From Lepisosteus oculatus (Eukaryota; Chordata; Actinopteri; Semionotiformes; Lepisosteidae): DNA of 64,000 nucleotides. This document shows positions 2,346-53,397 of the stretch, piece by piece. Numbering within the stretch: the first letter of the stretch is position 1; each line of letters opens with the position of its first letter. A program made the position numbers and the translations under genes. The DNA lies in the NCBI RefSeq assembly GCF_040954835.1, contig NC_090709.1, positions 44,648,490 through 44,712,489 on the forward strand, written 5' to 3'. The notes under the pieces were generated by a model. The model saw only the letters and a list, made by a program, of their open reading frames with translations. It was not told where the DNA came from and did not search any database.

Positions 2346-2661
2346 GTGAAAGGTATATTGCACCGAGCAAAGACTCCACCCCTCCCAGAAAACAGCACTT
2401 CCCTTTGGCAAAGCAGTGGGTGGATGAAGCCTTTGCTACCATTATCAAACACAGAAATCGTTATAATATAATTTTAAAAACATGGCTAAGCATGGCTTTA
2501 AAGTATATTCAACAGTGCAGGTGCATTCAAAGAAACAGAGTTTCCCAAGCCCTCGGAAAGAATGACCATTTCTAAAGATGTCTAGTTTCAAGCATTAACA
2601 TCTGAAGTACCTGTCTTAGCTGGGGCAGGAAGTTTGCCAAGCCACCTGAAAGAATTACCAT

Positions 2662-4105
2662 TAAGAGTGAGATTTTTTATCAGAACTGGAGGGAGCCAAA
2701 AGAAGGACATGATCTAAGGCTGCAAGAGAAGAGAATTAAGGTCCTGGGGGTGTATTTTGGAGAAGAGGTGGGAACAGTAAATTGGCAGAACAAATTGCCA
2801 ATCTTAAACAAAAAACTGATGCAATGGAAGGACCGAGACCTCACCATGACAGGGAAGGTGCTGGTCATCAAAGCCGAGCTCTTGCCTGTCTTGAATTTTC
2901 TGGCTTCTACCTTCCCAATCCCACACCGTGTTGCGGCGGTGCCAAGGAGATTGATGTTTCAATTTCTATGGGGTGGGAAGCAGGAAAGACTCAGAAGGGA
3001 AATAATGTACAGGCCGCTACCCTGAGGGGGGAAGTCTGTCCCAGATATTCTTACGAAGCTGCTGTGCATTTTCCTGGCCTCTGTGCTGAGAGGCATTGCA
3101 ACAGCACTTGCAGCGCGTACCTGGACTTATTTTTCCAGGCTCTGGGTAGATAGGGAGGTGTTCAGAATGTGGGGTGTCAGACCCAAGCTGGATGTCCCAC
3201 TCTCTGACACATGCCCTGCAATTTATGGGACAGTTAAAAGTTTTCTAAGATCTCACCCAATTGGCCATATTCCCCTCCGAGATGTCAGCATCCAAAAACT
3301 GGAAGATTTCGTTGCAACCCAGAACAATGGGCAGACCCCTGTGGGCATTTTAACATCAGCCCAAACAAGGAAGGTGTGGAAACACACATCCTCTAAGTTT
3401 CTGTGTAACATTCACAGAGATTTAGCCTGGAGTGTCGTCCACCAGTGCTTACCGGTACGAACTTTCTTGTACCGTAGGGGCCTCACCCCCAGCCCTCGCT
3501 GCGTTAGGGTGGGCTGCGGCGAGGAGGAGACTGTGACCCATCTCCTGTGGTCCTGCTTTTTTGCTAAGGCCTTCTGGGCACAGTTTGAAGATTGGTTGCA
3601 AGCTCTCTCGCCCCAATTTACCCTGACCGCTGCTTTTGTCATATATGGCATCTCTCCTGTCAAACTTCCTCCTGACGTGTTCGACAGGATCTGGGCCGTG
3701 GTGAACAGTGGGAAAGACGCCCTGTGGAGAGTGAGGAACATGGGGCTGTTCAAAGGCATCGAGGTCCCAGTCAAGGCAGCAGGTAGCCTGGCCCTGTTCA
3801 TCACCCGAGAGAACTATTACCTCAGAGATCTGTGGAGAGAAGGGAGGGAGGAAGCAGAAAATCTGTGGGAAATAGAGAGCATAGGTCAATATCTCAAGAA
3901 ACTGTGAAAAACATTATCATGTTTAAGTAAAGAATGTAATTTGCACCAGAAAAAAAGAAATTGTCGCTATGTAACTGGTACCGTGTCAAAATGTAATGAG
4001 ATGTGATCATATATACTGTTTTAAGTATGTATATTAATGTAAAGCTTTCTAATTTGTGATGTCCTGTATTTTTTGGTGAAAAGAAAATAAAGTTCTTAAA
4101 AAATC
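2662..4105 (+). mobile_element. 5'-truncated copy of the U1-associated Tx1-type LINE (ORF2 C-terminus and 3'UTR)
   Basis: From about 2662 the DNA follows the full-length LINE from its position ~10409 onward with few changes. It encodes the region after the RT active site, then the C-terminal domain with the C-x4-C-x7-H-x4-C knuckle (CVRVGCGEEETVTHLLWSC), ending ..GQYLKKL at 3907. One in-frame TGA near 3023 replaces the TCA of the intact copy; the frame resumes on both sides. The 3'UTR ends AATAAAGTTCTTAAAAAATC and abuts U1 nt 40 at 4106. Sudden 5' truncation with a precise 3' end is normal for LINE insertion by target-primed reverse transcription. I do not see a U1 5' half just upstream of 2662, so the left flank was lost or rearranged. 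Confidence 0.93.
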
Positions 4106-4230
4106 GGTTCACCCAGGGTGAGGCTCGGCCATTGCACTCCGGCTATGCTGACCCCTGCGAATTCCCCAAATGTGGGAATCTCGACTGCATAATTTCTGGT
4201 AGTGGGGGACTGCGTTCGCGCTCTCCCCTG
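4106..4230 (+). ncRNA. U1 snRNA, 3' part (nt 40-164)
   Basis: The 125 bases match vertebrate U1 from nt 40 to the end. Landmarks are the CCCAGGG-GAGGC of stem I, ATTGCACTCCGG of the U1-70K loop, a CTATGCTGACCCCTGCGA block, the Sm-site region ATAATTTCTGGTAG, and a terminal GGGGGACTGCGTTCGCG hairpin ending CTCTCCCCTG. The length equals human nt 40-164 exactly. The 5' part, including the splice-site-pairing ACTTACCTG, is absent because the LINE 3' end occupies that place. As a gene it is interrupted and should not make U1. Confidence 0.95.
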
Positions 4231-4238
4231 ATGTGCTT

Positions 4239-4252
4239 GGTCCAATATCAGA
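4239..4252 (+). promoter_or_regulatory. Possible snRNA 3' box
   Basis: GGTCCAATATCAGA lies 8 nt after the U1 end. It agrees with about 9 of 14 positions of the GTTTCAAAAACAGA-like 3' box used by snRNA genes and sits at the expected distance. The match is weak. The 600 bp between it and the 5S gene show nothing else I can name. Confidence 0.35.
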
Positions 4253-4848
4253 TACAGAAGAGTTACGACACCACGATCTGCGATAGGATCCCAGTTCGAA
4301 AGGAGTCGATGCCACTGCTGGTTCCCAGTTTCTTTTAGTTAGAGGTCCGGAGAAGCATTTCAAGCTGGTTACACTACTCCTTCCAGACATTCATTCCCTT
4401 TTCAAAGTCAGTCGTTTTGCTGTAGTCTGCATTATTTAGGCTGATTATCGAGGTTAGCCTTTATTTGGTCATGGGGGCCTCAGTACTGTATGCTAATTCT
4501 CAAGACAGTTTCACCCGTTTTCTGATTGCTAGGTTCTGTACCAGTGCAGACAAGTCAAACAGTGAATGGTTGTACCTCTATTGTATCCGTGCTCAATGAA
4601 TGAAATCAGTAATAAATGAATATATATATAGTTATACGAAAAACAAGTGGTTTATCGACTCATCTTTGCAGATTTAGAGGCAGCTTCGATATTCGTTTTA
4701 CAAACGGGTTTTTTTTTTATATGGGTCACACACATGCCATAGCAACAAAACATCTCTAGAGATGAGGCTATAGATCACCTTTCCATCCTCCAGGTTTTCC
4801 TCCCAAAGCCTACGGTACCAACGGCGACCCCCGCTGGCCGAGAGAGCA

Positions 4849-4969
4849 AAAGCTTGCAGCACCTGGTATTCCCAGGAAGTCTCCCATCCAAGTACTAACC
4901 AGGCCCAACCCTGCTTAGCTTCCGAGATCAAACAAGATCGGGCACATTCAGGGTGGTGTGGCCACAAGC
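4849..4969 (-). rRNA. 5S rRNA gene
   Basis: Read on the minus strand this is a complete 5S sequence of 121 nt. It starts GCTTGTGGCCACACCACCCT, carries the internal control region (AAGCTAAGCAGGG, then GGCCTGGTTAGTACTTGGAT) and ends GGTGCTGCAAGC, followed by TTTT for Pol III termination. A few bases differ from the common vertebrate 5S (TTGTTTGATC for TCGTCTGATC, ACTTCCTGG for ACCGCCTGG), so it could be a variant or a decaying copy. It points away from the two U1 halves that flank it. The stretch 4970-5410 upstream shows no further gene. Confidence 0.93.
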
Positions 4970-5414
4970 GAAAGCCATGGCGCCTAACTCGCTACTTGAA
5001 GCTGTGTGTGGCTGGGGCTCTGTGCCCCCCGAGCGGGACTGAAGGATCGTTCGTGTGCAACTCTTTGGGAAGGAGCCTCTTTCCAAATCGCATTGCGTAC
5101 CTGGATGTTGGCGAATGTGCTCCCTTGTGTTGGCTTGTCCCGCACTGGAGGAGAACAAACAAACTGCACGGAGGAGCACAAGCCAAGTCTTCACAAGACA
5201 AAAACCTCCAGTGCACAGCACTCTGAAAACATTTCTGGGCTGTCGTGGGTTTATTTCAGCACATAAAGCGCACCAGTCCAACGCGTTCGCGCTTTGCCCC
5301 CGGTCTCTTGCGCGAGTACTAAATCTCACGGCGCCAGCCAGCGGCAAGGAGACAAGTACAATATCGCGGGACGGGGGCCTCGTCATTGATTGTTACATAT
5401 GAGACGGGGATTAG

Positions 5415-5795
5415 GAGGAGACCCCGACTGATTGGTAAAGGGGAACACTAACACCAGAGAAACACCCCCGGAGTCTCTTTTTGAGAGACGCCCTGGGATT
5501 TCTTAATGGCCAAGGAGGGTCGGGACTTCGGTTTTATGCCTCCCCCGAAGGACGGCGCCTGTTTGTGCAGCAGAGTGTCGCCATCAGGATGCTGGGGCAT
5601 AAGAAAGCCACACAGACCGCAGGGTGAGCGCTCCCTACTGGTCCCAGTCACACCTCTTGCAGGAGCAGCAGCAACCTGAGCTTTTCCGGGGGGAATCTCC
5701 CATCCGGGTGCCGGCTAGGCTCACACCTGCTGGGCTGCCATGGGTGAGCCCAGTCGAGAGTCGCAGGGTGAGATCTAGTCACCGGGGAGAAACGA
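5415..5795 (-). mobile_element. 5S rRNA-derived SINE, diverged
   Basis: On the minus strand the head (about 5795-5690) resembles the second half of 5S rRNA (compare CTCCCATCCGGGTGCCGGCT with the 5S CTCCCATCCAAGTACTAACC). The body matches the SINE at 59895-60420: both carry CCGAAGGACGGCGCCTGTTT, a CACACAGACC block and a GAGA(A/G)ACGCCCTGGGAT block. The A/T-rich tail present in the other copy is not seen here. This is a separate retroposed copy, not part of the true 5S gene. The 5800-6436 stretch beside it is GC-rich and otherwise blank. Confidence 0.75.
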
Positions 5796-6436
5796 TACAA
5801 GCGAAGGATTACTCGACTCCCAGCACTTGAAAAGACCGACAAATGACTCGTTCCCACCGGAGCTGAATTTACCTGCATGTGTCGTGTCGTCTTCTTCCCC
5901 CGCCCCGCTGTGTTTGCTGTATTGTCTTTGAAGCCGACCCCCGAGACGAGACGGGCTGTTCCTGTGCCCCAATTAACACTTTACAGGTGCTATTCCCCGG
6001 CATTGTGGCCATTGTCGGTGGTCACACGTGATAAGATAAGGTGGAGGAGAGCGGGGCATGCCCAGCGCCAGACATTCAAGGAGGTGGCCGTGCGAGGTGA
6101 GGTGAGGTGCGACACGCCGGAGCCCCGACGCTGCTAATGCAGAGCACTTGTTGAACTGGCATTGAAAGGACATGTGCGCACGGAGCGAGCCTTCCCTGCG
6201 GCGGAGCGTGGAAACTTTCTCCCCGCGCTGCAGGAGTTGTGTGCGCTGCAGCGGTGCCGAGAGAACAGCACAGAAGGCAGCAAGCTCTGGAGAGCGGGTA
6301 AGAGACGGAGCCTTGTGGGCAGGCGAGCAGGCGAGCAGGCCCGTTTTTTGGAAATTGCTGAAAAGGCTCCGGTGTTTGTTCGGTGTGTGGCAGGCACACG
6401 ACGTGAGCTTGCGTAGCGATCTGCCGGTCTGGTGTT

Positions 6437-6476
6437 ATGCAAATGACACCGAATTGCGTCCCGGGACATGCTGCGA
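6437..6476 (+). promoter_or_regulatory. Distal element of a U1 promoter: octamer plus SPH-like site
   Basis: A perfect octamer ATGCAAAT (6437-6444) lies about 238 bp before the first U1 base. Some 15 bp further is CCCGGGACATGCTGCGAA, which resembles the SPH/Staf site. Vertebrate snRNA genes carry an octamer, often with SPH, near -220, so spacing and composition fit. I could not find a convincing proximal element near -55. Confidence 0.55.
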
Positions 6477-6677
6477 ATGCGCATTGGCGACTGCAGATGT
6501 GTAGGAAACGGCGCGCTCGTTTTCTCGTTTTGCCCACCCTTTTGAGTGTTAGTGTGGCGTGTGAGTGTGCGAAAGAGTGGGCCCAGCAGGAGGCAGTGGC
6601 GTGCGGGGCGAGGAGCTGGGCTAGGCTGCGCGCTTTGTGCTGTGGGTGCTGGCCGCTTGCAGGGCCTTATACAACTT

Positions 6678-6721
6678 ATACTTACCTGGCAGGGGTGATA
6701 CCTTGATCATCCTGTAGGTGG
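6678..6721 (+). ncRNA. U1 snRNA, 5' part (nt 1 to ~41), interrupted by a LINE
   Basis: ATACTTACCTGGCAGGGGTG is the U1 5' end, including the ACTTACCTG that pairs with 5' splice sites. It continues ATACCTTGATCAT.. to AGGTGG, where the LINE 5' end starts. There are 44 bases where human U1 has 41; the extra three lie in a diverged CATCCTGT segment. Together with 4106-4230 both sides of the same U1 target point are visible in this window, but they belong to two different gene copies. Confidence 0.92.
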
Positions 6722-6778
6722 AGTAGTTGGATTGTTTTCTTGTTTTGTGGAAGCAGTGTTTGTTTTGCAGTTTACGAA

Positions 6779-8206
6779 ATGGCAACTTTTGGATCCCGCA
6801 AGAATTCTGTGCGTTTTGAGCTTTTGGATGACCTCTTCATGGATCGTATGCAGTTTAGCAGAAAAGTGTTGCAGAAGGAACTTGGCTTTGAACCTCAGCA
6901 CTTTGATTTCATCTTCGCTCTCCCAGGTCAGAAAGCATTTGAGGTTGTATTTGCTACCTATCCTCTGTTTGAACAATGTGTGGATGTGTTTGAGGCAAGA
7001 GGAGGGAAAGTTCCTGCCCTTGAGAAGATCAACTTGCAGCCTCTGACACAGAGAGAGAGGAAAATGGTGCATGTTGTTATGTTCTCGGAACTGGCAAAGA
7101 CTGAGGACATTCACACCTGGCTTAACCAGTACTGCACCGTCCACCATGGAACTGAGGTTAGAGATGTTGACGGTATAAAAACAGGAGCAAGGAAATTCGA
7201 GGTTCGCTTGCTACCGGACAATGTAAATGGAGGCTTAAGGCACCTGCCCTCTACAATCCGGCAGGGCGCCTGCAATGGCTATGTGTTTTATGTGGGACAA
7301 CCAAAGGTGTGTTGGCGCTGTGGTGCTGTGGGACACCTGGCATCGTCCTGCACTGTGAAATGCTGCAAGACCTGTGGCAAACAGGGACATTTAGCCTCTG
7401 ACTGTTCAATGCTGCCAAAGTGCAATTTATGTGGCTCGGAAGGACACGTTTTTAAGAACTGCCCACACGCCTACGCCAATAAACTCAAAATGAGAAAGGA
7501 TGAGGCAGTGCTTGTTTCAGCCAAACTGGCCCGTAAATCCAAAGCAAACAACAACTCAAACAAAGAACCCTTGTTGGACAAAGACTCTCAGCCTCCAGCC
7601 AGGATCAGTCCTGCTGTGGCTCTGGGGCCGGTGGAAGAGAAATCCACTACGACCCCACAACTGCAGACTGCACCAGACAAGCACGAGGGTTTGAAAACCC
7701 CCGAGAACAGCGAGGACCCCTCCCCCACTCCTGCTCCTCAGAACGAGGGCCAGTGTGGGGCCCCCCGGTGGAGCGGGTCCAGCGAGGATACCCAGGATTC
7801 AGCGGAGCTGCTTTTCTCAGACTCTGCAAGTGCTAGAGATGTCCTCCTCTCCTCCATCCAGTCCATCACGGAGGATCTGCAGCAGCTGGTGGGTGAGGGG
7901 GAAGAGGAGACTGGTGCATCGGCTGCACCCCTTTCCCCTCAGTGCTCCCAGGAGCTGGACTTGAGGAAAAGAAAAAATGACTCTGTTTTCTCCCCGAGCG
8001 AGGAGGAAGGAGAGCATGGTGATGGGGACAGCTGGAACCTCTCCACCCGTCCCTCTACCCCCTTCCTTGAAATGGACTCTGTGAACGCTTTTACTGCTGC
8101 CACCCTGATGAAGGCTCATTCAGAGGATGGCTGGCAGGAAATTGGTAAGAAGAAAAAGAAAAAGAAAAAGGTAACAGGTGAGACCGAAGAGAAATGTGTT
8201 TTGTAA
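6779..8206 (+). CDS. LINE ORF1 protein, nucleic-acid binding, three CCHC knuckles
   Basis: I chose the ATG at 6779 (MATFGSRKNSVRF..); the frame is open further upstream only through a TTG. The product is 475 aa. The N-terminal ~175 residues are a conserved domain of unknown fold (MQFSRKVLQKELGFEPQHFD.., HTWLNQYC). Three zinc knuckles follow: CWRCGAVGHLASSC, CKTCGKQGHLASDC and CNLCGSEGHVFKNC, spaced about 20 residues apart. The remainder is low-complexity, rich in Pro, Ser and Glu, with a Lys-rich end (GKKKKKKKKVTGE). Proteins of this type bind element RNA and help form the particle that carries out retrotransposition. The gene ends 26 nt before the preferred ORF2 start and in a different frame. 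Confidence 0.93.
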   Translation: MATFGSRKNSVRFELLDDLFMDRMQFSRKVLQKELGFEPQHFDFIFALPGQKAFEVVFATYPLFEQCVDVFEARGGKVPALEKINLQPLTQRERKMVHVVMFSELAKTEDIHTWLNQYCTVHHGTEVRDVDGIKTGARKFEVRLLPDNVNGGLRHLPSTIRQGACNGYVFYVGQPKVCWRCGAVGHLASSCTVKCCKTCGKQGHLASDCSMLPKCNLCGSEGHVFKNCPHAYANKLKMRKDEAVLVSAKLARKSKANNNSNKEPLLDKDSQPPARISPAVALGPVEEKSTTTPQLQTAPDKHEGLKTPENSEDPSPTPAPQNEGQCGAPRWSGSSEDTQDSAELLFSDSASARDVLLSSIQSITEDLQQLVGEGEEETGASAAPLSPQCSQELDLRKRKNDSVFSPSEEEGEHGDGDSWNLSTRPSTPFLEMDSVNAFTAATLMKAHSEDGWQEIGKKKKKKKKVTGETEEKCVL

Positions 8207-8232
8207 AGACTGGTTCCACTTTCTTATGTAAT

Positions 8233-11200
8233 ATGGCTCTTAACATAATTTCTCTTAACACAAGAGGTATCAATGACAGAGTTAAATGCCAGTCTGTCTT
8301 TGATTACCTCCAGCAGAGAGAGGGAGATGTGTTGATGTTGCAGGAGTGTGCTTTAGCCTATCAAGAGAGGTATAAAAGTTTTGAAGATAGGTGGGATAAA
8401 GGGCCTTCTGTTTGGTCAGGGGACAATAACAACAGAGCCTCTGGCGTGGCCATTCTTTTCAAAGGATGGGCATTCAAATTGAAAAGTATTCAGAGGGTCA
8501 TAGATGGCAGGTTGCTGTGTGTGGATGTGGAATGGGGGACCGTTAACCTGCGGCTAATCAATGTGTATTGCCCTACTGACGTAGGAGGAAGGGTGGAGCT
8601 ACTCAAGGCACTCTCCCCCCTATTGTTATGCAGCACAGACGTGATAGTGGGAGGGGATTTTAATTGTATCTTAGAGCACACAGACAGGCAGTCTAGCTCG
8701 CCGATAAAATTGGATTCCAGCTCACTGGCCCTGCAAAACTTAGTTCAAGACTTTAAACTCTCAGACACATATAGATGTATATATCCCACAACAGCAGGAT
8801 ATACATGGTCAGGGAGGAATAGCAGCTCCAGAATTGACTATTGCTTTGTCTCAGAGAGAGTGAAAGTTGTTGGGGTCACTCTTCAGCCTGTCTTCTTCTC
8901 AGATCATCAGGCTTTAGGGTGTAGAGTGGAACTCCAGGGCGGGACTGTCTTTGGCCCAGGCCTCTGGAAACTCAACACAAAGCTGCTAGAGAACGAGGGG
9001 GTAGTATCCCGCTACAAGGAGAAACTATCACAGTGGCTGTCCTTGCAGTGTCTGTATGGGTCAGTAGGAGAGTGGTGGGAGGAGGTGAAGGTGAGGACAA
9101 AGGCCTTTTTCATGGCTGAGGGAAGGAAGGCTGCTGCCAGACGGAGAGGAGTGCTAGCCAGGAAACAGAGGCAGCTGCAGCGTCTCTACACGATGCTGCA
9201 CAGTGGCTTCGATGTGCTCGAGGATATCGCCCTTTTAAAAAAGGACATCCGGAGCATAGCGGAAGAAAGTAGTCGAGGAGTGCTGTTAAGAAGCAGAGTG
9301 CAGTTCTTGGAAGAAAATGAGAAGTGTACTCGCTTCTTTTTCAGGAAAGTGGTAGGCTCCAAGACTGTCATGGAAAGTGTAGTTGATGAGGAGGGACGAG
9401 AGAGAACAGAGCCGAGTGCTATCCTCTCCTGCACCGAGGCCTTCTACTCAAGACTGTACAGCTCTACAGAGGTAAAGGATGAAGATATTCATTTTTTTAC
9501 CTCAAAGCTAGAAAACATTTTGAGTGAAGAAGATAGGGAAGTACTTGAGAGGGATTTGACAGTAGAAGAGCTGAGACAGGCTATGGAGAGCTTACAGAAG
9601 GGGAAAACTCCGGGTGCTGACGGGCTCCCTAAAGAATTTTATTGCACCTTTTGGGATCTGCTTCAGGATCCGCTACTGCTCCTATTCGAGGAAAGCTACA
9701 AGACAGAATTGCTGCCTGACTCCTTAAGAGAAGGCACTATCTCTCTCTTGTTTAAGAAAGGAGCAAAAAATGACATAAAGAACTGGAGACCCCTCAGCCT
9801 GTTAGGCGTGGACACTAAGATCCTGTCCAAAGCCCTTTTCCTGCGCCTACAAAATGTAGTGGCCTCACTGGTAGGGAAAGAACAGACTTGTGGGATAGCA
9901 GGACGCCTGATGAGCGACAACCTGGCCTTGTTGAGGGATGTCTGTCTGTACTCTGAGGATCGCTCCCTCCCTCTGTGCATTTTAGGTGTAGACCTAGAAA
10001 AGGCCTTTGACCGCCTAAACCGGCAGTACTTAACATCGGTACTTGAGCACATGAAGTTTGGCCCCATCATGAGAAAGTGGATTAACCTGCTGTACACAGG
10101 TAGCAACAGCAGAGTCATGGTTAATGGCAATAGATCACGCACCTTTGAAGTCTGTTCAGGGGTGAGGCAGGGCTGCCCATTATCCCCCTTGTTATTCGTT
10201 TTGGCTATGGAGCCCTTAGCCTGTGCCTTGCGCCAGGATCAGGCCATTAATGGGATACCAGTGCCTGGAAGTGGGGGAGGAGAGGTAAAGACATCTCTAT
10301 ACATGGATGACGTCACCCTGCTCCTCTCTGACAATGCCTCAATTAGCAGAGCTCTGCAGTGCTGTGATCGGTTCTCTTTGGCTTCCTCCGCAAAAATTAA
10401 CACATCTAAGAGTGAGATTTTTTATCAGAACTGGAGGGAGCCAAAAGAAGGACATGATCTCAGGCTGCAAGAGAAGAGAATTAAGGTCCTGGGGGTGTAT
10501 TTTGGAGAAGAGATGGGAACAGTAAATTGGCAGAACAAATTGCCAATCTTAAACAAAAAACTGATGCAATGGAAGGACCGAGACCTCACCATGACAGGGA
10601 AGGTGCTGGTCATCAAAGCCGAGCTCTTGCCTGTCTTGAATTTTCTGGCTTCTACCTTCCCAATCCCACACCGTGTTGCGGCGGTGCTGAGGAGATTGAT
10701 GTTTCAATTTCTATGGGGTGGGAAGCAGGAAAGACTCAGAAGGGAAATAATGTACAGGCCGCTACCCTCAGGGGGGAAGTCTGTCCCAGATATTGCTACG
10801 AAGCTGCTGTGCATTTTCCTGGCCTCTGTGCTGAGAGGCTTTGCAACAGCACCTGCAGCGCGTACCTGGACTTATTTTTCCAGGCTCTGGGTAGGTAGGG
10901 AGGTGTTCAGAGTGTGGGGTGTCAGACCCAAGCTGGACGTCCCACTCTCTGACACATGCCCTGCAATTTATGGGACAGTTAAAAGTTTTCTAAGATCTCA
11001 CCCAATTGGCCATATTCCCCTCCGAGATGTCAGCGTCCAAAAACTGGAAGATTTCGTAGCACCCCAGAACAATAGGCAGACCCCTGTGGGCATTTTAACA
11101 TCAGCCCAAACAAGGAAGGTGTGGAAACACACATCCTCTAAATTTCTGTGCAACATTCACAGAGATTTAGCCTGGAGTGTCGTCCACCAGTGCTTACCGG

Positions 11201-11652
11201 TACGAACTTTCTTGTACCGTAGGGGCCTCACCCCCAGCCCTCGCTGCGTTAGGGTGGGCTGCGGCGAGGAGGAGACTGTGACCCATCTCCTGTGGTCCTG
11301 CTTTTTTGCTAAGGCCTTCTGGGCACAGTTTGAAGATTGGTTGCAGGCTCTCTCGCCCCAATTTACCCTGACCGCTGCTTTCATCATATACGGCATCTCT
11401 CCTGTCAAACTTCCCCCTGACGTGTTTGACAGGATCTGGGCCGTGGTGAACAGTGGGAAAGACGCCCTGTGGAGAGTGAGGAACATGGGGCTGTTCAAAG
11501 GCATCGAGATCCCAGTCAAGGCAGCAGGTAGCCTGGCCCTGTTCATCACCCGAGAGAACTATTACCTCAGAGATCTGTGGAGAGAAGGGAGGGAGGAAGC
11601 AGAAAATCTGTGGGAAATAGAGAGCATTGGACAGTATCTCAAGAAACTGTGA
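8233..11652 (+). CDS. LINE ORF2 protein: APE endonuclease, reverse transcriptase, C-terminal knuckle
   Basis: Start at MALNIISLNTRG (8233) is favoured over the ATG at 8194, because MALN is also the start region in the relic LINE at 61250. The protein is 1139 aa. Endonuclease motifs are in order: LMLQEC (metal-binding Glu), INVYCPT, VGGDFNC, SRIDYCFVS and FSDHQALG (catalytic His). RT motifs: NDIKNWRPLSLLGVDTKI, CILGVDLEKAFDRL (first Asp), GVRQGCPLSPLLF, and SLYMDDVTLL (second Asp pair; Met replaces the usual Ala of YADD). The C-terminal zinc knuckle is CVRVGCGEEETVTHLLWSC. The endonuclease nicks the target and the RT copies element RNA from that nick. Site choice in this clade is thought to reside largely in the endonuclease. 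Confidence 0.95.
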   Translation: MALNIISLNTRGINDRVKCQSVFDYLQQREGDVLMLQECALAYQERYKSFEDRWDKGPSVWSGDNNNRASGVAILFKGWAFKLKSIQRVIDGRLLCVDVEWGTVNLRLINVYCPTDVGGRVELLKALSPLLLCSTDVIVGGDFNCILEHTDRQSSSPIKLDSSSLALQNLVQDFKLSDTYRCIYPTTAGYTWSGRNSSSRIDYCFVSERVKVVGVTLQPVFFSDHQALGCRVELQGGTVFGPGLWKLNTKLLENEGVVSRYKEKLSQWLSLQCLYGSVGEWWEEVKVRTKAFFMAEGRKAAARRRGVLARKQRQLQRLYTMLHSGFDVLEDIALLKKDIRSIAEESSRGVLLRSRVQFLEENEKCTRFFFRKVVGSKTVMESVVDEEGRERTEPSAILSCTEAFYSRLYSSTEVKDEDIHFFTSKLENILSEEDREVLERDLTVEELRQAMESLQKGKTPGADGLPKEFYCTFWDLLQDPLLLLFEESYKTELLPDSLREGTISLLFKKGAKNDIKNWRPLSLLGVDTKILSKALFLRLQNVVASLVGKEQTCGIAGRLMSDNLALLRDVCLYSEDRSLPLCILGVDLEKAFDRLNRQYLTSVLEHMKFGPIMRKWINLLYTGSNSRVMVNGNRSRTFEVCSGVRQGCPLSPLLFVLAMEPLACALRQDQAINGIPVPGSGGGEVKTSLYMDDVTLLLSDNASISRALQCCDRFSLASSAKINTSKSEIFYQNWREPKEGHDLRLQEKRIKVLGVYFGEEMGTVNWQNKLPILNKKLMQWKDRDLTMTGKVLVIKAELLPVLNFLASTFPIPHRVAAVLRRLMFQFLWGGKQERLRREIMYRPLPSGGKSVPDIATKLLCIFLASVLRGFATAPAARTWTYFSRLWVGREVFRVWGVRPKLDVPLSDTCPAIYGTVKSFLRSHPIGHIPLRDVSVQKLEDFVAPQNNRQTPVGILTSAQTRKVWKHTSSKFLCNIHRDLAWSVVHQCLPVRTFLYRRGLTPSPRCVRVGCGEEETVTHLLWSCFFAKAFWAQFEDWLQALSPQFTLTAAFIIYGISPVKLPPDVFDRIWAVVNSGKDALWRVRNMGLFKGIEIPVKAAGSLALFITRENYYLRDLWREGREEAENLWEIESIGQYLKKL

Positions 11653-11924
11653 AAAACATTATCATGTTTAAATAAAGAATGTGATTTGCACCAGAAAAAA
11701 AGAAAATTGTTGCTATGTAACTGTTACCGTGTCAAAATGTAATGAGATGTGATCATATATACTGTTTTAAGTATGTATATTAATGTAAAGCTTTCTGATT
11801 TGTGATTTCCTGTATTTTTTTGTGAAAAGAAAATAAAGTTCTTAAAAATCGAAATCGAAATCGGTAGAGTAGTTGGATAGTTTTCTTGTTTTGTGGAAGC
11901 AGTGTTTGTTTTGCAGTTTACGAA

Positions 11925-13127
11925 ATGGCAACTTTTGGATCCCGCAAGAATCCTGTGCGTTTTGAGCTTTTGGATGACCTCTTCATGGATTGCATGCAGT
12001 TCAGCAGAAAAGTGTTGCAGAAGGAACTTGGCTTTGAACCTCGGCACTTGGATTTCATCTTTGCTCTCCCAGGTCAGAAAGCATTTGAGGTTGTTTTTGC
12101 TACCTATTCTCTGTTTGAACAATGTGTGGATGTGTTTGAGGCAAAAAGAGGGAAAGTTCCTGCCCTTGAGAAGATCAACTTGCAGTCTCTGACACACAGA
12201 GAGAGGAAAACGGTGCATGTTGTTATGTTCTCGGAACTGGCAAAGACGGAGGACATTCACACCTGGCTTAACCAGTACTGCACCGTCCACCATGGAACTG
12301 AGGTTAGAGATGTTGACGGTATAAAAACGGGAGCAAGGAAATTCGAGGTTCGCTTGCTACCGGACAATGTAAATGGAGGCTTAAGGCACCTGCCCTCTAC
12401 AATCCGGCTGGGCGCCTGCAATGGCTATGTTTTTTATGTGGGACAACCAAAGGTGTGTCGGCGCTGTGGTGCTGTGGGACACCTGGCATCGTCCTGCACT
12501 ATGAAATGCTGCAAGACCTGTGGCAAACACGGACATTTAGCCTCTGACTGTTCAATGCTGCCAAAGTGCAATTTATGTGGCTCGGAAGGACACGTTTTTA
12601 AGAACTGCCCTCACGCCTACGCCAATAAACTCAAAATGAGAAAGGATGAGGCAGTGCTTGCTTCAGCCAAACCAGCCCGAAAATCCAAAGCAAACAACAA
12701 GTCAAACAAAGAACCCTTGTTGGACAAAGACTCTCAGCCTCCAGCCAGGATCAGTCCTGCTGTGGCTCCGGGGCCGGTGGAAGAGAGATCCACTACACCC
12801 CCACAACCGCAGACTGCACCAGACAAGCACGAGGGTCTGAAAACCCCCGAGAACAGCGAGGACCCCTCCCCCACTCCTGCTCCTCAGAACAAGGGCCAGT
12901 GTGGGGCCCCCCGGTGGAGCGGGTCCAGCGAGGATACCCAGGATTCAGCGGAGCTGCTTTTCTCAGACTCTGCAAGTGCTACAGATGTCCTCCTCTCCTC
13001 CATCCAGTCCATCACGGAGGATCTGCAGCAGCTGGTGGGTGAGAGGGAAGAGGAGACTGGTGCATCGGCTGCACCCCTTTCCCCCTCAGTGCTCCCAGGA
13101 GCTGGACTTGAGGAAAAGGAAAAATGA
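11925..13127 (+). pseudogene. ORF1 of the second LINE copy, frameshifted near its end
   Basis: ATG at 11925 gives MATFGSRKNPVRF.. and the same three CCHC knuckles as the intact ORF1 (CRRCGAVGHLASSC, CKTCGKHGHLASDC, CNLCGSEGHVFKNC). One extra C in the run near 13080 (TTTCCCCCTC against TTTCCCCTC) shifts the frame. The protein then ends ..GAGLEEKEK at 13127 instead of running to the Lys-rich tail. The lost tail remains readable in another frame (12901-13317). The product lacks only about 80 residues, so knuckle function could survive. Confidence 0.88.
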
Positions 13128-13315
13128 CTCTGTTTTCTCCCCGAGCGAGGAGGAAGGAGAGCATGGTGATGGGGACAGCTGGAACCTCTCCACCCCTCCC
13201 TCTACCCCCTTCCTTGAAATGAACTCCATGAACGCTTTTACTGCTGCCACCCTGATGAAGGCTCATTCAGAGGATGGCTGGCAGGAAATTGGTAAGAAGA
13301 AAAAGAAAAAGAAGT

Positions 13316-14919
13316 AAATCAAGAGAGGTATAAAAGCTTTGAAGATAGGTGGGATAAAGGGCCTTCTGTTTGGTCAGGGGACAATAACAACAGAGCCTCT
13401 GGCGTGGCCATTCTTTCAAAGGATTGGCATTCAAATTGAAAAGTATTCAGAGGGTCATAGATGGCAGGTTGCTGTGTGTGGATGTGGAATGGGGGACCGT
13501 TAACCTGCGGCTAATCAATGTGTATTGTCCTACTGACGTGGGAGGAAGGGTGGAGCTACTCAAAGCACTCTCTCCCCTATTGTTATGTAGCACAGACGTG
13601 ATAGTGGGAGGGGATTTTAATTGTATCTTAGAGCACACAGACAGGCAGTCTAGCTCTCCGATAAAATTGGATTCCAGCTCACTGGCCCTGCAAAACTTAG
13701 TTCAAGACTTTAAACTCTCAGACACATATAGATGTATATATCCCACAATAGCAGGATATACATGGTCAGGGAGGAATAGCAGCTCCAGAATTGACTATTG
13801 CTTTGTCTCAGAGAGAGTGAAAGTTGTTGGGGTCACTCTTCAGCCTGTCTTCTTCTCAGATCATCAGGCTTTAGGGTGTAGAGTGGAACTCCAGGGCGGG
13901 ACTGTCTTTGGCCCAGGCCTCTGGAAACTCAACACAAAGCTGCTAGAGAATGAGGGGGTAGTATCCCGCTACAAGGAGAAACTATCACAGTGGCTGTCCT
14001 TGCAGTGTCTGTACGAGTCAGTAGGAGAGTGGTGGGAGGAGGTGAAGGTGAGGACAAAGGCCTTTTTCATGGATGAGGGAAGGAAGGCTGCTGCCAGACG
14101 GAGAAGAGTGCTAGCCAGGAAACAGAGGCAGCTGCAGCGTCTCTACACGAGACAGTGGCTTCGATGTGCTCGAGGATATCACCCTTTTAAAAAAGGATGT
14201 CCGGAGCATAGCGGAAGAAAGTAGTCGAGGAGTGCTGTTAAGAAGCAGAGTGCAGTTCTTGGAAGAAAATGAGAAGTGTACTTGCTTCTTTTTCAGGAAA
14301 GTGGTAGGCTCCAAGTCTGTCATGGAAAGTGTAGTTGATGAGGAGGGAAGAGAGAGAACAGAGCCGAGTGCTATCCTCTCCTGCATCGAGGCCTTCTTGT
14401 CACGGACGTCCAAGGGGACTAACCGTGGGGAGCAGGAGGGCGGAAAAAGACCCATATGCTTAGCGGCGATACGGGAAAAAGGCCCGGGCTCATTAGTGCA
14501 AAGAGTTCAGGAATGCCGTATAGAAACCTGTGCCCTCAGGGAGCGGACGTGGGGCGCCCTGGTGCTAGGCGGGTCTCAGGACATCCGAACGTCAGTGCTG
14601 AGCGAGGACAGAGTGCAAGACCCTGAAATATTTAGCCAAGGGAAAGAGAGGGACAGGAAGGACAGCAGACCAGAAACTAGGGACAGGACAGAGAAGGACC
14701 GCCCTCTGGCTGCAGAGGGCGTGACACTTCTACTCAAGACTGTACAGCTCTACAGAGGTAAAGGATGAAGAAATTCATTTTTTTACCTCAAAGCTAGAAA
14801 ACGTTTTGAGTGAAGAAGATAGGGAAGTACTTGAGGGGGATTTGACAGTAGAAGAGCTGAGAGGCTATGGAGAGCTTACAGAAGGGGAAAACGCCGGGTG
14901 CTGACAGGCTCCCTAAAGG
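13316..14919 (+). pseudogene. ORF2 of the second LINE copy: endonuclease remnant, interrupted
   Basis: The original ORF2 start is deleted. Homology begins at the equivalent of ..YQERYKSFEDRWDKGPSVWSG. Single-base losses near 13412 (CTTTCAAAGGATTGG against CTTTTCAAAGGATGG) and near 14150 break the frame. The best open piece is 13424-14224, with INVYCPT, VGGDFNC, SRIDYCFVS and FSDHQALG intact. A solo LTR splits the later part. The frame ends at the truncation around 14919. An ORF running past the break (14867-15067) is a junction artefact. Confidence 0.88.
14398..14726. mobile_element. Solo LTR inside the second LINE copy, with 5 bp target duplication
   Basis: A 329 bp insert begins TGTCACGGACG and ends GGGCGTGACA, so its ends are inverted TGTCACG/CGTGACA. 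It is flanked by CTTCT on both sides (14393-14397 and 14727-14731). The LINE sequence reads continuously across if one CTTCT and the insert are left out. TG..CA ends and a 5 bp duplication fit a solo LTR of Ty3/gypsy or ERV type. It is younger than the LINE copy it entered. A TIR transposon is less likely given length and ends. Confidence 0.85.
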
Positions 14920-45381: not shown

Positions 45382-48300
45382 TGTAGCGGCAATGCTTGTT
45401 AATAAGACAGAATTAAGTGTTGCTGTGCTTTCCCAAATGCAACCAACTCAAACAACGCACACACAGGTACTAATACATGAGGATACATTCATTAATATAT
45501 ATAATATGCATGTAAACCAAACAGATCTTATCGTAAGGGTTATCAGAATACAAAAGATATATATTCATTCAGTTACAAAGAGTTACACATATCAAGAGGA
45601 CATACGTTCGGTATATCATTCATTTAGACCGTTTCGTAATTTAACTTGGTTACAACTTCTGCATTAGATACTCAAAACAAGTACATAACTCTTAGGAATT
45701 AAATTGATATCAACTGGTTGGGATAACAATAGAATTCTGGAGCAGTAATGCAGTGAAGTTGAATACTCATCCGATCTCTGGGGATTCAGATCTCCTGCGG
45801 GCACAAGCAAATGCAGGCTTGTTGCTGTCCAATCCGCACTCTCTGGCTCCGTGCCAGGCTGTGCTGTGCGGCTTGTGACGGTGCGCTGCTGATGCTCTCT
45901 GAATACTGGCTAGTTAGTTTTGGCTGAAACTAGCGAAGTTTGTGCACAGGAGAAAAGATGACTGTGAGTCCCAGCAGGTCAGGAAGACGACCAGTTCGTT
46001 CCTGATGAAGCGCTAGTTCTGAATAGTGATTCAGCTGTCCACAGTTCTGACCTTCTCACGAGGCCTGCTGCTGGTGCTAACCTCGGGTGTATCCTCTGGT
46101 TACTCTCTGGCAACCTCCGCTCTCGACTCTTAGAACAAAGGAAAGTTCTGGCACTTGGACACACTGGCCGTTCCGTGGTGGTCCAGGCTGAGTCTCAGGA
46201 TGGTCAGGAGGCACACTGCGAGAATGGTTGGATTCTGAGACCATTAAAAGAATCAATTCTGTGATTAACTGCCACAATTAATAATTGTCCCAGTAAATGC
46301 CCAAACCCCTACAGAACTGGTGCCTCGTGAGAGCACACTACAACAGTGTGTGATCTCCTGTCCCAGCCTGAGGAGCAGACACCAAACCTGTCTCTCAATA
46401 ATAATAATACAGTGTGTGATCTCCTGTCCCAGCCTGAGGAGCAGACAGCGAGCCTGTTTCTCAATAATAATAGAACAGTGTGTGATCTCAAGTCCCAGCC
46501 TGAGGAACAAACAGTGAGCCTGTCTCTCAATAATAATAATAAAGTGTGTGATCTCCTGTCCCAGCCTGAGGAACAGACACCGAGCCTGTCTCTCAATTAT
46601 AATAATACAGTGCGTGATCTCCTATCCCAGCCTGAAGAACAGACAGTGACCCTGTCTCTCAATAATAATAATACAGTGTGTGATCTCCTGTCCCAGCCTG
46701 AGGAGCAGACAGCGAGCCTGTTTCTCAATAATAATAGAACAGTGTGTGATCTCCAGTCCCAGCCTGAGGAACAAACAGTGAGCCTGTCTCTCAATAATAA
46801 TAATAAAGTGTGTGATCTCGTGTCCCAGCCTGAGGAACAGACAGCGAGCCTGTCTCTCAATAATAATAATACAGTGTGTGACCTCCTGTCCCAGCTTGGG
46901 GAACAGGGAGCCAGACTCTCAATAATAATTACAGTGAGGAACAGTGAGTTTATCTGTCAATAATAATAATACAATGTGATCTCCTGTCCCAGCCTGAGGA
47001 ACAGTGAGCTTGTCTCTCAATAATAATAATCCAGTGTGTGATCTCCTGTCCCAGCCTGAGGAACAGACAGTGAACCTGTCTCTCAATAATAATAATCCAG
47101 TGTGTGATCTCCTGTCCCAGCCTGAGGAACAGACAGTGAACCTGTCTCTCAATAATAATAATACAGTGTGTGATCTCCTGTCCCAGCCTGGGGAACAGAC
47201 AGTAAACCTATCTCTCAATAATAATAATCCAGTGTGGAATGTCCCAGTCTAGGGAACAAACAGTGAGCATGTCTCTCAATAATAATAGAACAGTGTGTGA
47301 TCTCCAGTCCCAGCCTGAGGAAAAGTGAGCTTGTCTCTCAATAATAAAAATACAGTGTGTGATCTCGTGTCCCAGTCTGAGGAACAGACAGTGAGCCTGT
47401 ATCTCAGTAGTAATAATAATACAGTGTGTTACCTCCTGTCCCAGCCTGAGGAAGAGACAGTGAGCCTGCCTCTCAATATTAATAATACAGTGTGTGATCT
47501 CCTGTCCCAGCCTGGGGAACAGAGAGTAAACCTATCTCTCAATAATAATAATCCAGTGTGTGAGCTCCTTTCTTAGCCTGAGGAACAGACAGTGATCCTG
47601 TCTCTCAATAATAATAATAATCCAGTGTAGGATGTCCTGTCCCAGTCTGAGGAACAAAAAGTGTGCTTGTCTCTCAATAATAATAGATCAGTGTGTGATC
47701 TCCTGACCCAGCCTGGGGAGCACTGAGGCTGTATCTCAATAATAATAATACAGTGTGTCATCTCCTGTTCAGTGAGCTTGTCTCTCAAAAATAATAATAC
47801 AATGTGATCTCCTGCCCCAGCCTGAAGAACAGACGGTGAACCTGTCTCTCAATAATAATAATACAGGGTGTGACCTCCTTTCCCAGCCTTAGGAAGAGAC
47901 AGTGAGCCTGTCTCTCAATAATAATGATACAGTGTGGGATCTCCTGCCCCAGCCTGGGGAACAGACAGTGATCCTGTCTCTCAATAATAATACTCCAGTG
48001 TGGAATGTCCTATCCCAGTGTAGCGGCAATGCTTGTTAATAAGACAGAATTAAGTGTTTCAGTGCTTTCCCAAATGAGGCCTCATCTCTCTGTTCATCTC
48101 TGTAGTGCAGCCACAGAGAAACTATTCATGCAGGCTGATTTAAAGATGTTTTCTTTTGATAAGGGACAGCTCCCAAAGGGGGGTGCACTTAGCTAAGCCT
48201 GGCTATCATGATCAATGGGCATCCATTGGCGCCTATCTGTCTAGGGAGTGCCAGATGGACATCTGGATTGCATTAGTAAGTGTCAGGAGTAAGTGACTCA

Positions 48301-49378: not shown

Positions 49379-50192
49379 GAAGCATGCAAGAAAATGTGAT
49401 CATTACCTATGGAATTTCCCACCAGCGTGGAGTTTGAATTCACAACCATGAGACTCAGTGTTCAAGAGTCACAGAAGAGGTCAGCCTGGTCTTCAGTTTG
49501 CCAACGATAAGCTCTGGCAGTGCTCCTCTGTAAAGCAGATTGTTCGGATCGGTTATGTGGGACGGCACTTCGATACTAAGATCGTTTGCAGCACACGCAT
49601 GGTTTCCCCCTTCACGCAAAAAACATAGACGAAGGAAACTCTCTTGTCTTGGGCTGCTGACTCCCGGATTTAAAGCGCTCTGGGTGCCAGCTATGTCTCT
49701 AACAAGCACACTATAAAGACAGGAATTACACTTTGCTCACGTCACGCATGGAATGGCGAGGCTACTTGTTCCAATATTATCTAGTCTCACCTCATATGGT
49801 GCCGATTCCTGGTTTTCATTTAAGAAAGAGCACTGCAAACACCGTAAACAGTGCAAAACGTGTGATGAAAGAAGTCTTTTCCCCCCTTTGTCTAAAGCAG
49901 AACACAGCGGAGTCATGCCGAGGGTTGCGAGATCAAGATTTCAGTGGAGCACTGTCGTCTACGTCTTTAGCTACATGAGTTGGACATCCTCTTGTACACG
50001 GAAAGCAGATTGAGATCCTCTGACATGAAAAGTGCCAGATAAAAGCCATTTCTCATCCTTTCTCTTAGTGGTGGAGCTATCGCATGTAAATGAGGCAACT
50101 TGCAAGGCGAGCAGGCTTGGTGCACACTGAACGCAGATGTCTCAGAGCAGTTGAGACGTGTCCAAGTGGCTGTCAAAGGACAGCACTTTGCC

Positions 50193-50266
50193 GGCGCCGT
50201 GGCTTAGTTGGCTAAAGCGCCTGTCTAGTAAACAGGAGATCCTGGGTCTGATTCCCAGCGGTGCCT
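50193..50266 (+). tRNA. tRNA-Thr (AGT)
   Basis: GGCGCCGTGGCTTAGTTGGC, anticodon loop CTAGTAA (AGT), acceptor end GCGGTGCC plus T, 74 nt. The acceptor, D and anticodon arms agree with vertebrate tRNA-Thr(AGT). The B box reads GGTCTGATTCC instead of GGTTCGAATCC, so promoter strength and the T loop may be impaired. The partner in unit II is closer to consensus. Confidence 0.85.
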
Positions 50267-50511
50267 TTCTTCCTGTCTTACTGTACAGAATTTATCCTTA
50301 TTGGCAAATCCCATGCCTTTTAATTCAGGTGAATGCAAGTGTTCGTTTCCTTTCTGGAACAACATGTTTTGAAAGAAATCTATACAGCTTGCGAAAGATG
50401 AAACACAAATCTTGCTTATCAATGAAGAAGAGGTACTCCCAGCAGGCCAGCTAATACCAGCAAAGTTTTTTTTTCACCCTAACCCAGAGAATGGAGAAAA
50501 GCGAGGCGCCT

Positions 50512-50585
50512 GTGGCTCTGCAGTGTAATCAGTTCGCGAGTTTGGCGGTTAGCTGAAAGAGTGGTAAATGGAGCTCGCCCCAGCC
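50512..50585 (+). pseudogene. tRNA-Asn-like sequence, unit I
   Basis: GTGGCTCTGCAGTGTAATCA .. TTTGGCGGTTAGCTGAAAGA .. GAGCTCGCCCCAG retains the tRNA-Asn outline, but the acceptor stem and T loop have drifted. It is repeated in unit II. Confidence 0.5.
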
Positions 50586-51246
50586 CGTCCTTATTCTTTT
50601 AAAGAGGATAAAAAATTAACTTCGCCGCCATTACTACCAGCTTTAAAAGACTGCCATGGGCACGGAAAAAAACACACTACAGATGACTTTTCTGGAACCG
50701 AAGCAGAGATTCCTTTACGAACCAACTGATAAAGCTCAGCCAGTGAATACTGTTAACAGAATGTGAAAGCACGATCAACTTTGTAACTGCAACCACAGGA
50801 AAAACAGCAAGAAGCAGGCTCCATTCCCCATTTAAATCTGTCGTGCGAGGCATGCTTTTGAACTTGGACAAAGTACTTCCAAAGGAGCGCTATGCGCAAA
50901 GATTTAACAAGCTCAACCCCCGCCGATGATTTGGTGTGAAGAAGCAGAACATTCAAGTTTCACAGACAGAAGCAGCACGCCAGCACAGCCAACATTAAAA
51001 CGGAGGGCACACTACGATTTGCATTGACACAAAAGTGATCTGGGCAGACGTCGTTCCCTGCATAACGCAAAAAGTGGCAAAGCGCTTTTGGGTTGAGAGG
51101 ACGCAAGAAGGTTTTTGTTTTGTGCCTTGATGTCAAGCTGAGAAAGTATCTTTAAACACTTTGCTTAGTTTCTCGAGAGACTGCCAAAAAGCAGTTCCCT
51201 CCCTTTTGTCTGAAGCCAGCTGAAAGGGGGTCTTGACAGAAGCACC

Positions 51247-51328
51247 CGGCAGCGGTGGGATTCGAACCCACGCCCCTGAAGAGACTGGAGCCTTAATCCA
51301 GCGCCTTAGACCGCTCGGCTACGCTACC
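51247..51328 (-). tRNA. tRNA-Leu (AAG), unit I
   Basis: The minus strand reads GGTAGCGTAGCCGAGCGGTC .. CTGGATTAAGGCTCCAG (loop TTAAGGC, anticodon AAG), a long variable arm (TCTCTTCAGGGG) and B box GGTTCGAATCC, ending CCGCTGCC with discriminator G. It is 82 nt, as usual for this Leu type. One D-arm base (TAGCC for TGGCC) and the discriminator (A expected for leucine) differ from consensus. A leucine tRNA without A73 may charge poorly. Confidence 0.85.
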
Positions 51329-53006
51329 CGCTGTGTGTTGTTTCTTTGTCTCATTACTTGCCCGGAGGAAGCCGGGTGGGTTTTGCTCTTGTCGCCCGAC
51401 TTAGTGGCGTTATGACCGTGGAACCGACTGCACCTGTTTTTTCTGAGATGCTTCCCCTCTCATGGCGAGATCTCGACTTCTTTAACACCTCTGGATAAAG
51501 ATCTTCTGTGGAGCAGGTTTCAGACCTCTGCGTACAGCACCCTTGATGTCATTTTATTTTTACAGCAGCCGCATCCGGAAAGTTGTGTCTTTTACGTTTT
51601 ATTTGAACAACAAAACTACATACAATACAAACAAGAGCACATATAACGTATCAAGAAAATCGTCACGGGCACATGCTATAATACAATTACACTTTATGAA
51701 AAACGATTACACAAGGTAAATAAAGATAAGGTCCGCACAGCTTGTTCTTACATTTCGAAAGAGTCCGTAAATACCCCTTGACGTCTATTTTGAACTGTTC
51801 AAACGTAAGACTCTTCCCAGACCATTTCACTTTATACCACATTCCTAAACGAGGATGCTTCTCCTGTTTTAGAACTATTTTGGGCGGTATGGCTTATACA
51901 GCACACCCACAGTAGTCTAATGGTGGACTGCAGATCTGTGCTATAGTTCAGTCGAATTCAAAGGATTCAGCAATCGTACTGGATTTGACTGGGATTCTGA
52001 AATGTCTCTTGCAAAAGTATTCGGGTTTGCTTGAACCTTTGATACAAAAAGTGATCTGATCTGAAACTACCCAGCTTACAATCTCTGAGGTAGTTGTCAC
52101 TCAACTCGGACGTGATGTGGCACACATGTGCCGTGTGCCTTTACTTTTGTAAAAAACTGGTATCGGGAAAAGTTTCTTAATATTTCTTTTGATTAGCATG
52201 CAAGAAAATGTGATCATTACCTATGGAATTTCCCGCCAGCGTGGAGCTTGAATTCACAACCCTGAGACTCAGTGTTCAAGAGTCACAGAAGAGGTCAGCC
52301 TGGTCTTCAGTTTGCCAACGATAAGCTCCGGCAGTGCTCCTCTGTAAAGCAGATTGTTCGGATCGGTTATGTGGGACGGCACTTCGATACTAAGATCGTT
52401 TGCAGCACACGCATGGTTTCCCCCTTCACGCAAAAAACATAGACGAAGGAAACTCTATTGTCTTGGGCTGCTGACTCCCGGATTTAAAGCGCTCTGGGTG
52501 CCAGCTATGTCTCTAACAAGCACACTATAAAGACAGGAATTACACTTTGCTCACGTCACGCATGGAATGGCGAGGCTACTTGTTCCAATATTATCTAGTC
52601 TCACCTCATATGGTGCCGATTCCTGGTTTTCATTTAAGAAAGAGCACTGCAAACACCGTAAACAGTGCAAAACGTGTGATGAAAGAAGTCTTTTCCCCCC
52701 TTTGTCTAAAGCAGAACACAGCGGAGTCATGCCGAGGGTTGTGAGATCAAGATTTCAGTGGAGCACTGTCGTCTACGTCTTTAGCTACATGAGTTGGACA
52801 TCCTCTTGTACACGGAAAGCAGATTGAGATCCTCTGACATGAAAAGTGCCAGATAAAAGCCATTTCTCATCCTTTCTCTTAGTGGTGGAGCTATCGCATG
52901 TAAATGAGGAAACTTGCAAGGCGAGCAGGCTCGGTGCACACCGAATGCAGATGTCTCAGAGCAGTTGAGACGTGTCCATGTGGCTGTCAAAGGACATCAC
53001 TTTGCC

Positions 53007-53080
53007 GGCGCCGTGGCTTAGTTGGCTAAAGCACCTGTCTAGTAAACAGGAGGTCCTGGGTCCGATTCCCAGCGGTGCCT
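53007..53080 (+). tRNA. tRNA-Thr (AGT), unit II
   Basis: GGCGCCGTGGCTTAGTTGGC, loop CTAGTAA, B box GGTCCGATTCC, acceptor GCGGTGCC plus T, 74 nt. Compared with unit I it has one change in the D-stem side (GCACC for GCGCC) but a better B box. Probably functional. Confidence 0.9.
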
Positions 53081-53323
53081 TTCTTCCTGTCTTACTGTAC
53101 AGAATTTATCCTTACGGGCAAATCCCATGCCTTTTAATTCAGGTGAATGCAAGTGTTCGTTTCCTTTCTGGAACAACTTGTTTTGAAAGAAATCTATACA
53201 GCTTGAGAAAGATGAAACACAAATCTTGCTTATCAGTGAAGAAGAGGTGCTCCCAGCAGGCCAGCTAATACCAGCAAGTTTTTTTTCACCCTGACCCAGA
53301 GAATGGAGAAAAGCGAGGCGCCT

Positions 53324-53397
53324 GTGGCTCTGCAGTGTAATCAGTTCGGGAGTTCGGCGGTTAGCTGAAAGAGTGGTAAATGGAGCTCGCCCCAGCC
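53324..53397 (+). pseudogene. tRNA-Asn-like sequence, unit II
   Basis: Duplicate of 50512-50585 with two or three base changes. It has the same decayed acceptor and T loop. Confidence 0.5.

Follow-up and report, generated by a model that had tools for sequence, protein, structure and literature searches.

A LINE of Lepisosteus oculatus that probably targets U1 snRNA genes

Three long interspersed nuclear elements (LINEs) of the apurinic/apyrimidinic endonuclease (APE) type, Keno, Mutsu, and Dewa, target the U2 small nuclear RNA (snRNA) gene, the 5S ribosomal RNA (rRNA) gene, and the transfer RNA (tRNA)-Leu spacer, respectively (PMC3706591, PMC4640811). A LINE of Lepisosteus oculatus associated with U1 snRNA genes is described in this report. 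Three of its copies, A, B, and C, lie beside pieces of U1 in a stretch of 64,000 nucleotides (nt), termed the window (positions 44648490-44712489 of contig C14, accession NC_090709.1, in assembly GCF_040954835.1 of 1,200,105,466 bases and 813 contigs). The junctions of the copies make it likely that the LINE prefers U1 snRNA genes as targets and enters them at U1 nt 39/40 (AAGAAGGA/GGTTCACCC, the slash marking the junction here and below) by target-primed reverse transcription, from a transcript that would arise at the U1 promoter.

The full-length copy, copy B, had been described in an earlier note on this DNA as a LINE with both open reading frames (ORFs) open directly 3' of U1 sequence, and this description holds. 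ORF1 and ORF2 of copy B, of 475 and 1140 amino acids (aa), contain no internal stop, and the ORF1 ATG is the first ATG 3' of the U1 start site (+1, window position 6678), behind a leader of 101 nt. ORF2 exceeds the cut-offs of both PF03372 and PF00078 and aligns to human LINE-1 ORF2p over residues 3-856 (E 1.1e-90). Moreover, the pattern of target-primed insertion is present, with a fixed 3' end, varied 5' truncation, and target duplications in three truncated copies and in a copy within 7SL sequence. By its ORF2 domains and insertion pattern, the element is an APE-type retrotransposon without long terminal repeats (LTRs), that is, a LINE. It is L1-like, with a probable, putative placement in the Tx1 clade. 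A trait of many Tx1-clade members, site-specific insertion in a repeated sequence (U1 39/40), is found alongside copies outside U1. Like the Tx1-clade LINEs Tx1L, Keno, Mutsu, and Dewa, the element combines an APE endonuclease and a reverse transcriptase with insertion at one fixed position of an RNA gene present in many copies. Unlike Keno, Mutsu, and Dewa it uses U1 39/40: its preferred target is U1, whereas that of Keno is the U2 snRNA gene and that of Mutsu the 5S rRNA gene, and the only 5S gene of the window carries no LINE.

SINEU and Tx1-Mar of crocodilians are reportedly retroposons with U1- or U2-derived 5' heads; they are said to be short interspersed nuclear elements (SINEs) and to target a Mariner transposon, not U1. 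R2 has a single ORF and a restriction-like endonuclease. Co-transcription of R2 with the gene that it targets is assumed (PMC2718515), which is a likeness to the scheme proposed here, with the difference that the R2 target is 28S. Utopia also targets an snRNA gene, with occasional tandem insertion and with some less specific families; it differs in its restriction-like endonuclease and in using U2, not U1 (PMC4640811). Dada-U1 is a DNA transposon of zebrafish U1 genes with a DDE transposase and a GCGAAT or GCGAAC duplication (PMC3706591), unlike the present element, which has APE and reverse transcriptase proteins and junctions at another U1 position, nt 32 and 39/40. For the melanogaster-type R1 of Drosophila, the transcript carries a tag of the target gene that ends a few base pairs (bp) upstream of the site. 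An upstream cut of the top strand and annealing of the tag then lead to a precise target deletion, and a downstream cut duplicates the target, in some cases with the tag behind the duplication; 5'-truncated copies have duplications as well (PMC2718515). The present LINE likewise shows a target-gene tag, a short deletion in full-length copies, and duplications at truncated ones. R1 differs in belonging to another clade, in its 28S rRNA gene target, the preferred target here being U1, and in its deletion of 9 nt, against 7 nt (33-39) for the present LINE, whose tag is U1 nt 1-32. The integration pattern alone is alike.

Insertion at one position of U1

Intact U1 genes of the host read ..GATCAAGAAGGA/GGTTCACCC. 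For the 3' side, the last 123 nt of copy B served as query, and the best 40 of 785 candidates were scored, one being copy B itself. The 3' flanks of 33 of the other 39 matches, on 16 contigs, run into U1 at one place; the junction of L050 and L053 is shifted by 1-2 nt (ATCGA/TTCACCC). Insertion events are fewer than copies, since 11 of these 33 U1-sited 3' ends belong to one array on contig C1. The earlier note had given ..AAATC/GGTTCACCCAGGG as the reading of most 3' junctions; this fits the genome, as the 33 flanks indicate, and not the window, where such a junction occurs once (4105/4106, after copy A). As an exact pattern, the LINE-to-U1 3' junction was found 342 times genome-wide and the junction from U1 head to LINE 271 times. 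The LINE 5' end alone was also found 271 times, in a set that differs from the 271 head junctions, and one form of the LINE 3' tail 394 times. Reversed-pattern controls gave 0 in every case.

The same site was reached from the side of the target. When the 3' part of U1 was used as query (best 40 of 1125 candidates scored, 30 loci cut out), 12 of the 30 loci were intact U1 and 18 had a LINE end at U1 40, one G shorter in L107 and L110. Additionally, arrays combine empty U1 units with units that are ~5.1 kb longer. On contig C445, empty U1 units recur every 2.69 kb and occupied ones every 7.83-7.88 kb; the corresponding spacings on C1 are 3.33 and ~8.48 kb, and intermediate values occur there too. 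The 3.33-kb units of C1 would be empty, to judge from their spacing and their absence among the exact LINE/U1 junctions. Two types of U1 unit exist, with differing downstream flanks. Full-length copies in U1 lack U1 nt 33-39.

For the 5' side, the best 40 of 629 candidates were scored and 30 loci were cut out, all on C14. All 30 carry U1 nt 1-32, with few base changes, preceded by U1 upstream DNA. Distances between the upstream flanks (455 nt) are uncorrelated with those between the elements (1450 nt; r 0.08, 442 of 2000 permutations being at least as high as observed). The elements of L010 and L011 do not differ in 1450 nt, yet their U1 upstream flanks are 4.65% apart, which bears out the suggestion of the earlier note that the family was recently active. 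Among the matches listed, 5' junctions of U1 and LINE are dispersed over the 60-Mb contig C14, starting at 3.4 Mb. This contig, with the 5S, tRNA, and zinc-finger sequence of the window, is reminiscent of the long arm of zebrafish chromosome 4.

Predicted 5' ends show the junction GATCA/GCCTGT in 10 of 14 cases, and L083, L084, L086, and L092 have no head within the stretch read. Three shortened copies lie in U1 and start at different positions of the element. L078, in a C1 unit, has an 8-bp U1 duplication, GGTTCACC, with extra bases; L135 has one of ~14 bp, about GGTTCACCCAGGGC; L138, which is the 5' end of the copy missed by L086, has the 4-bp duplication GGTT. A further locus, L137, lies entirely within the element. 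From these ends, L078, L135, and L138 would be independent insertion events.

A single old insertion in one U1 unit, spread by array amplification and segmental duplication and with no real target preference behind it, has to be weighed against these data. The U1-5S units do form arrays with long common flanks, and the 11 3' ends of the C1 array have one tail in common. Pure segmental duplication is rejected because the shortened copies begin at three different positions, each beside a U1 target duplication, and because the distances of elements and flanks are uncorrelated. Since, moreover, two kinds of U1 unit, unlike in their downstream flanks, are used and occupied units adjoin empty ones, a single old insertion is very unlikely. 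The proposal of the earlier note that U1 genes are the target of the LINE is upheld by the empty and occupied units of the same arrays and by the different truncations with their U1 duplications.

The U1 head and the putative transcript

An exact U1 head stands 5' of the element in 95 of the 100 element 5' ends listed. Nineteen of the listed ends lie outside C14: the C1 array accounts for 12 and C1:6.49-6.57 Mb for 3, and the remaining 4 are elsewhere. These 4 and one of the 3 were read (L139-L142 and L091). All five have a U1 head of 7-30 nt that ends at nt 32, and their upstream DNA is unrelated to the U1 flank and holds no U1 promoter. The head starts at nt 3 in L140 and L091, at ~nt 12 in L139 (one mismatch), at ~nt 17 in L142, and at nt 26, or slightly earlier with mismatches, in L141. 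The off-array heads vary in length and none extends upstream of U1 +1, as expected if the RNA begins at the U1 start site. The copy L140/L144 (C4:7.18 Mb), whose 5' end begins at U1 nt 3 (or 5), lies between two copies of CGGGAGGCTGAG, 12 bp long, or 14 bp if a shared AC is counted. Both of its flanks match 7SL (Metazoa_SRP, E 8e-09 and 7e-13) as partial pieces below the Rfam gathering score. Another arrangement is seen in L136 on C1, where U1 1-43 is followed by a second U1 head, nt 7-32, and then by the element.

It seems rather probable from these heads that the LINE lacks a promoter itself and depends on the RNA polymerase II snRNA promoter of the U1 genes in which it sits, that its mRNA is a U1(1-32)-LINE fusion, and that the 32 nt act as a homology arm joining the 5' end to the next U1 gene. 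Transcription, we infer, would start at +1 of an occupied U1 gene and yield a U1(1-32)-LINE mRNA with the ORF1 start as its first AUG. The ORF2 protein would nick the bottom strand at 39/40 and copy the RNA up to and including the U1 head. With an upstream cut of the top strand, the head could anneal to the U1 head of the target, giving a clean 5' junction with 7 nt lost. A downstream cut of the top strand would duplicate the target, and in some cases a second U1 head would come after the duplication, as in L136. Recombination within U1-5S arrays would multiply the occupied units.

U1 targeting may also be real without co-transcription from the U1 promoter, if the U1 head is an inherited part of the 5' untranslated region and an internal promoter drives the LINE. 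The join of U1 nt 32 to the element is common to every 5'-complete copy read, including those off the arrays, and would suit such an inherited leader. The five off-array heads argue otherwise, as they vary in length, never pass U1 +1 (the longest starts from nt 3), and are accompanied by no U1 promoter. An internal promoter is therefore considered possible but doubtful. As for the origin of the U1 sequence itself, a switch of the reverse transcriptase from LINE RNA to U1 snRNA would likewise place U1 5' of LINE copies, and the U6-L1 chimeras of mammals are a precedent for it. Template switching can hardly explain the present chimeras: their join is fixed at U1 nt 32 and the element 5' end in every 5'-complete copy read and recurs in 271 exact junctions, and in the arrays the U1 gene and its upstream flank enclose the copies.

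Copies outside U1

Several observations weigh against a U1-specific, U1-transcribed element. LINE copies outside U1 are clearly common. Six of the 39 3' flanks surveyed are not U1 (L047, L048, L051, L052, L075, and L077), and an exact U1 junction lies within 50 bp of 24 of the 100 exact 3' tails listed, or of 9 of 84 without the C1 array. Copies in random flanks, named in the earlier note as the observation that would speak against a U1-specific family, are thus a reality for part of the family. On C14, 24 exact U1 junctions are listed, yet only 1 of the 34 exact tails listed there has one. These fractions are unfair as rates, because the exact tails listed span contigs C1 to C36 only and U1-sited copies bearing other tails are missed. 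Array copies multiply with their units and, therefore, junction counts differ from insertion counts. Since the last base of the tail repeat is G, the 39/40 site is fixed only to within 1 nt. Gene conversion could be another cause of identical elements in unlike flanks. With regard to the five head-bearing off-array copies, L140/L144 in 7SL sequence is the sole clean case. The L141 copy has 7 certain head nt, a non-U1 3' flank, and no clear duplication, the L091 copy has U1 at its 3' side (L053), and the L142 copy is followed by U1 nt 40 to ~100 and then by unrelated DNA. The L136-type junction is a single case. Moreover, snRNA promoters normally yield short RNAs, and a 5-kb product would be unusual.

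We do not think that this leakiness overturns the preference for a single U1 position. A loose preference for small-RNA-like sequence, with U1 made dominant by its large, self-multiplying arrays, would account for the copies in 7SL and other DNA and for the low share of exact U1 junctions, 9 of 84, among the exact tails listed outside the C1 array. It is considered unlikely, as the 342 exact junctions on many contigs use the identical U1 base and the one 5S gene of the window is free of the LINE.

A second specific target was considered for the non-U1 3' flank GCGTCTCCACTG.. (L008/L077, L047, and L048) and rejected; the first 52 bp of this flank are a dispersed repeat (best 40 of 430 candidates). 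A copy of the U1-family LINE adjoining this 52-bp repeat lies at the edge of a cluster at C18:5.25-5.27 Mb (L125 and neighbours), where five matches are spaced by ~5017 bp. L125 holds an ORF for a putative immunoglobulin (Ig) light-chain-like V domain. On one strand at C16:20318923-20334323, four LINE 3' ends follow one another at 5126-5127 bp; the copies may be joined head-to-tail with no U1 separating them, as B and C are in the window. The copy L142/L146 (C13:33.80-33.81 Mb) has a head of ~16 nt and no U1 upstream flank; after U1 nt ~100 come a C run, AAAAAAAA, and the unrelated DNA. It may be a retrotransposed read-through transcript.

The window and the meaning of a U1 target

As seen in Table 1, two halves of U1 in the window are separated by a spacer with a 5S gene on the opposite strand; the window therefore crosses a U1-5S repeat unit. 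The order of elements in the C1 unit is identical.

Table 1. Features of the window that relate to the LINE and to U1 (window positions).
Feature	Position	Strand	Remarks
Copy A, LINE truncated at its 5' end, with its 3' end at the U1 target site	2649..4105	+	97.2% identity to 3671-5130 of the copy B query starting at 6722; 3' end AAAAAATC/GGTTCACCC
U1 snRNA gene, 3' part (nt 40 to end), directly 3' of copy A	4106..4230	+	Rfam RF00003
5S rRNA gene within the spacer between U1 halves of the repeat	4851..4969	-	Rfam RF00001, 104.8 bits; without LINE
Flank upstream of the next U1 gene, on its promoter side	5000..6677	+	Common to other U1 loci by sequence matches
U1 snRNA head, nt 1-32	6678..6709	+	ATACTTACCTGGCAGGGGTGATACCTTGATCA; identical to the start of intact host U1 genes except for one T for A
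Copy B, full-length LINE	6710..11862	+	Both ends shared by genome copies
ORF1, 475 aa	6779..8206	+	Two ZCCHC3-type RNA-binding domains, CCHC zinc knuckle (Pfam)
ORF2, 1140 aa	8230..11652	+	APE endonuclease, reverse transcriptase, zf-RVT (Pfam)
Copy C, second LINE copy, head-to-tail 3' of copy B	11863..14918	+	Internally deleted, frames broken

The RF00003 match spans 4066-4230 (93.9 bits, E 9.7e-23); U1 is restricted to the part given in the table because the initial 40 bases of the match are LINE. The upstream flank has main matches of ~91-98% identity over 468 to 1500 nt, lying 5' of the LINE in 29 other C14 loci, and is 90% identical to the C1 unit over 984 nt. The earlier note had placed U1 nt 1-41 (6678-6721) before the LINE. 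The direct run of U1 into LINE is confirmed, and the extent is corrected to nt 1-32, because intact host U1 reads GATCAAGAAGGA/GGTTCACCC and TCCTGTAGGTGG, from 6710 on, is not host U1; after GATCA the host gene continues with AGAAGGA, not TCCTGTA. Nor does copy B sit exactly inside a U1 gene, as had been supposed. Its 3' end, AAAAATCGAAATCGAAATC, a short repeat of the AAATCG type and not poly(A), abuts the damaged copy C, and no U1 match was found 3' of copy C up to 18000, the U1 3' half being absent there.

Copy C consists of the pieces 11863-14397 and 14727-14918. The insert of ~330 bp between them (~14398-14726) starts with TGTCACGGAC, ends with GGGCGTGACA, and has CTTCT flanking both sides, so that it resembles a solo LTR bounded by a 5-bp duplication. 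Elsewhere in the window, blocks of up to 300 bp with 95-99% identity and four tRNA genes recur at ~2.81-2.85 kb within 49381-54173, which suggests a two-copy tRNA-bearing unit, and a minisatellite-like array with a 66-bp unit occupies 46277-48060.

According to a 2015 account, the transposons reported from snRNA genes by then were only Keno and Utopia (U2), Dada-U1, and Dada-U6 (PMC4640811). No LINE described as targeting U1 was found in searches of an open-licence PMC library, which excludes Repbase, Dfam, and most subscription journals. U1 would, then, be a new target for a LINE. The off-array U1 head would record the transcript start and, therefore, co-transcription and tag-directed 5' joining become testable from sequence in an APE-type vertebrate LINE; such a scheme is described for Drosophila R1 (PMC2718515). 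An endonuclease whose site in a conserved vertebrate gene is defined could be of interest for site-specific gene insertion. If the proposed scheme is true, target gene, promoter, and joining tag are one sequence. Also, the many interrupted U1 genes in the arrays raise the question of how the host keeps its supply of U1.

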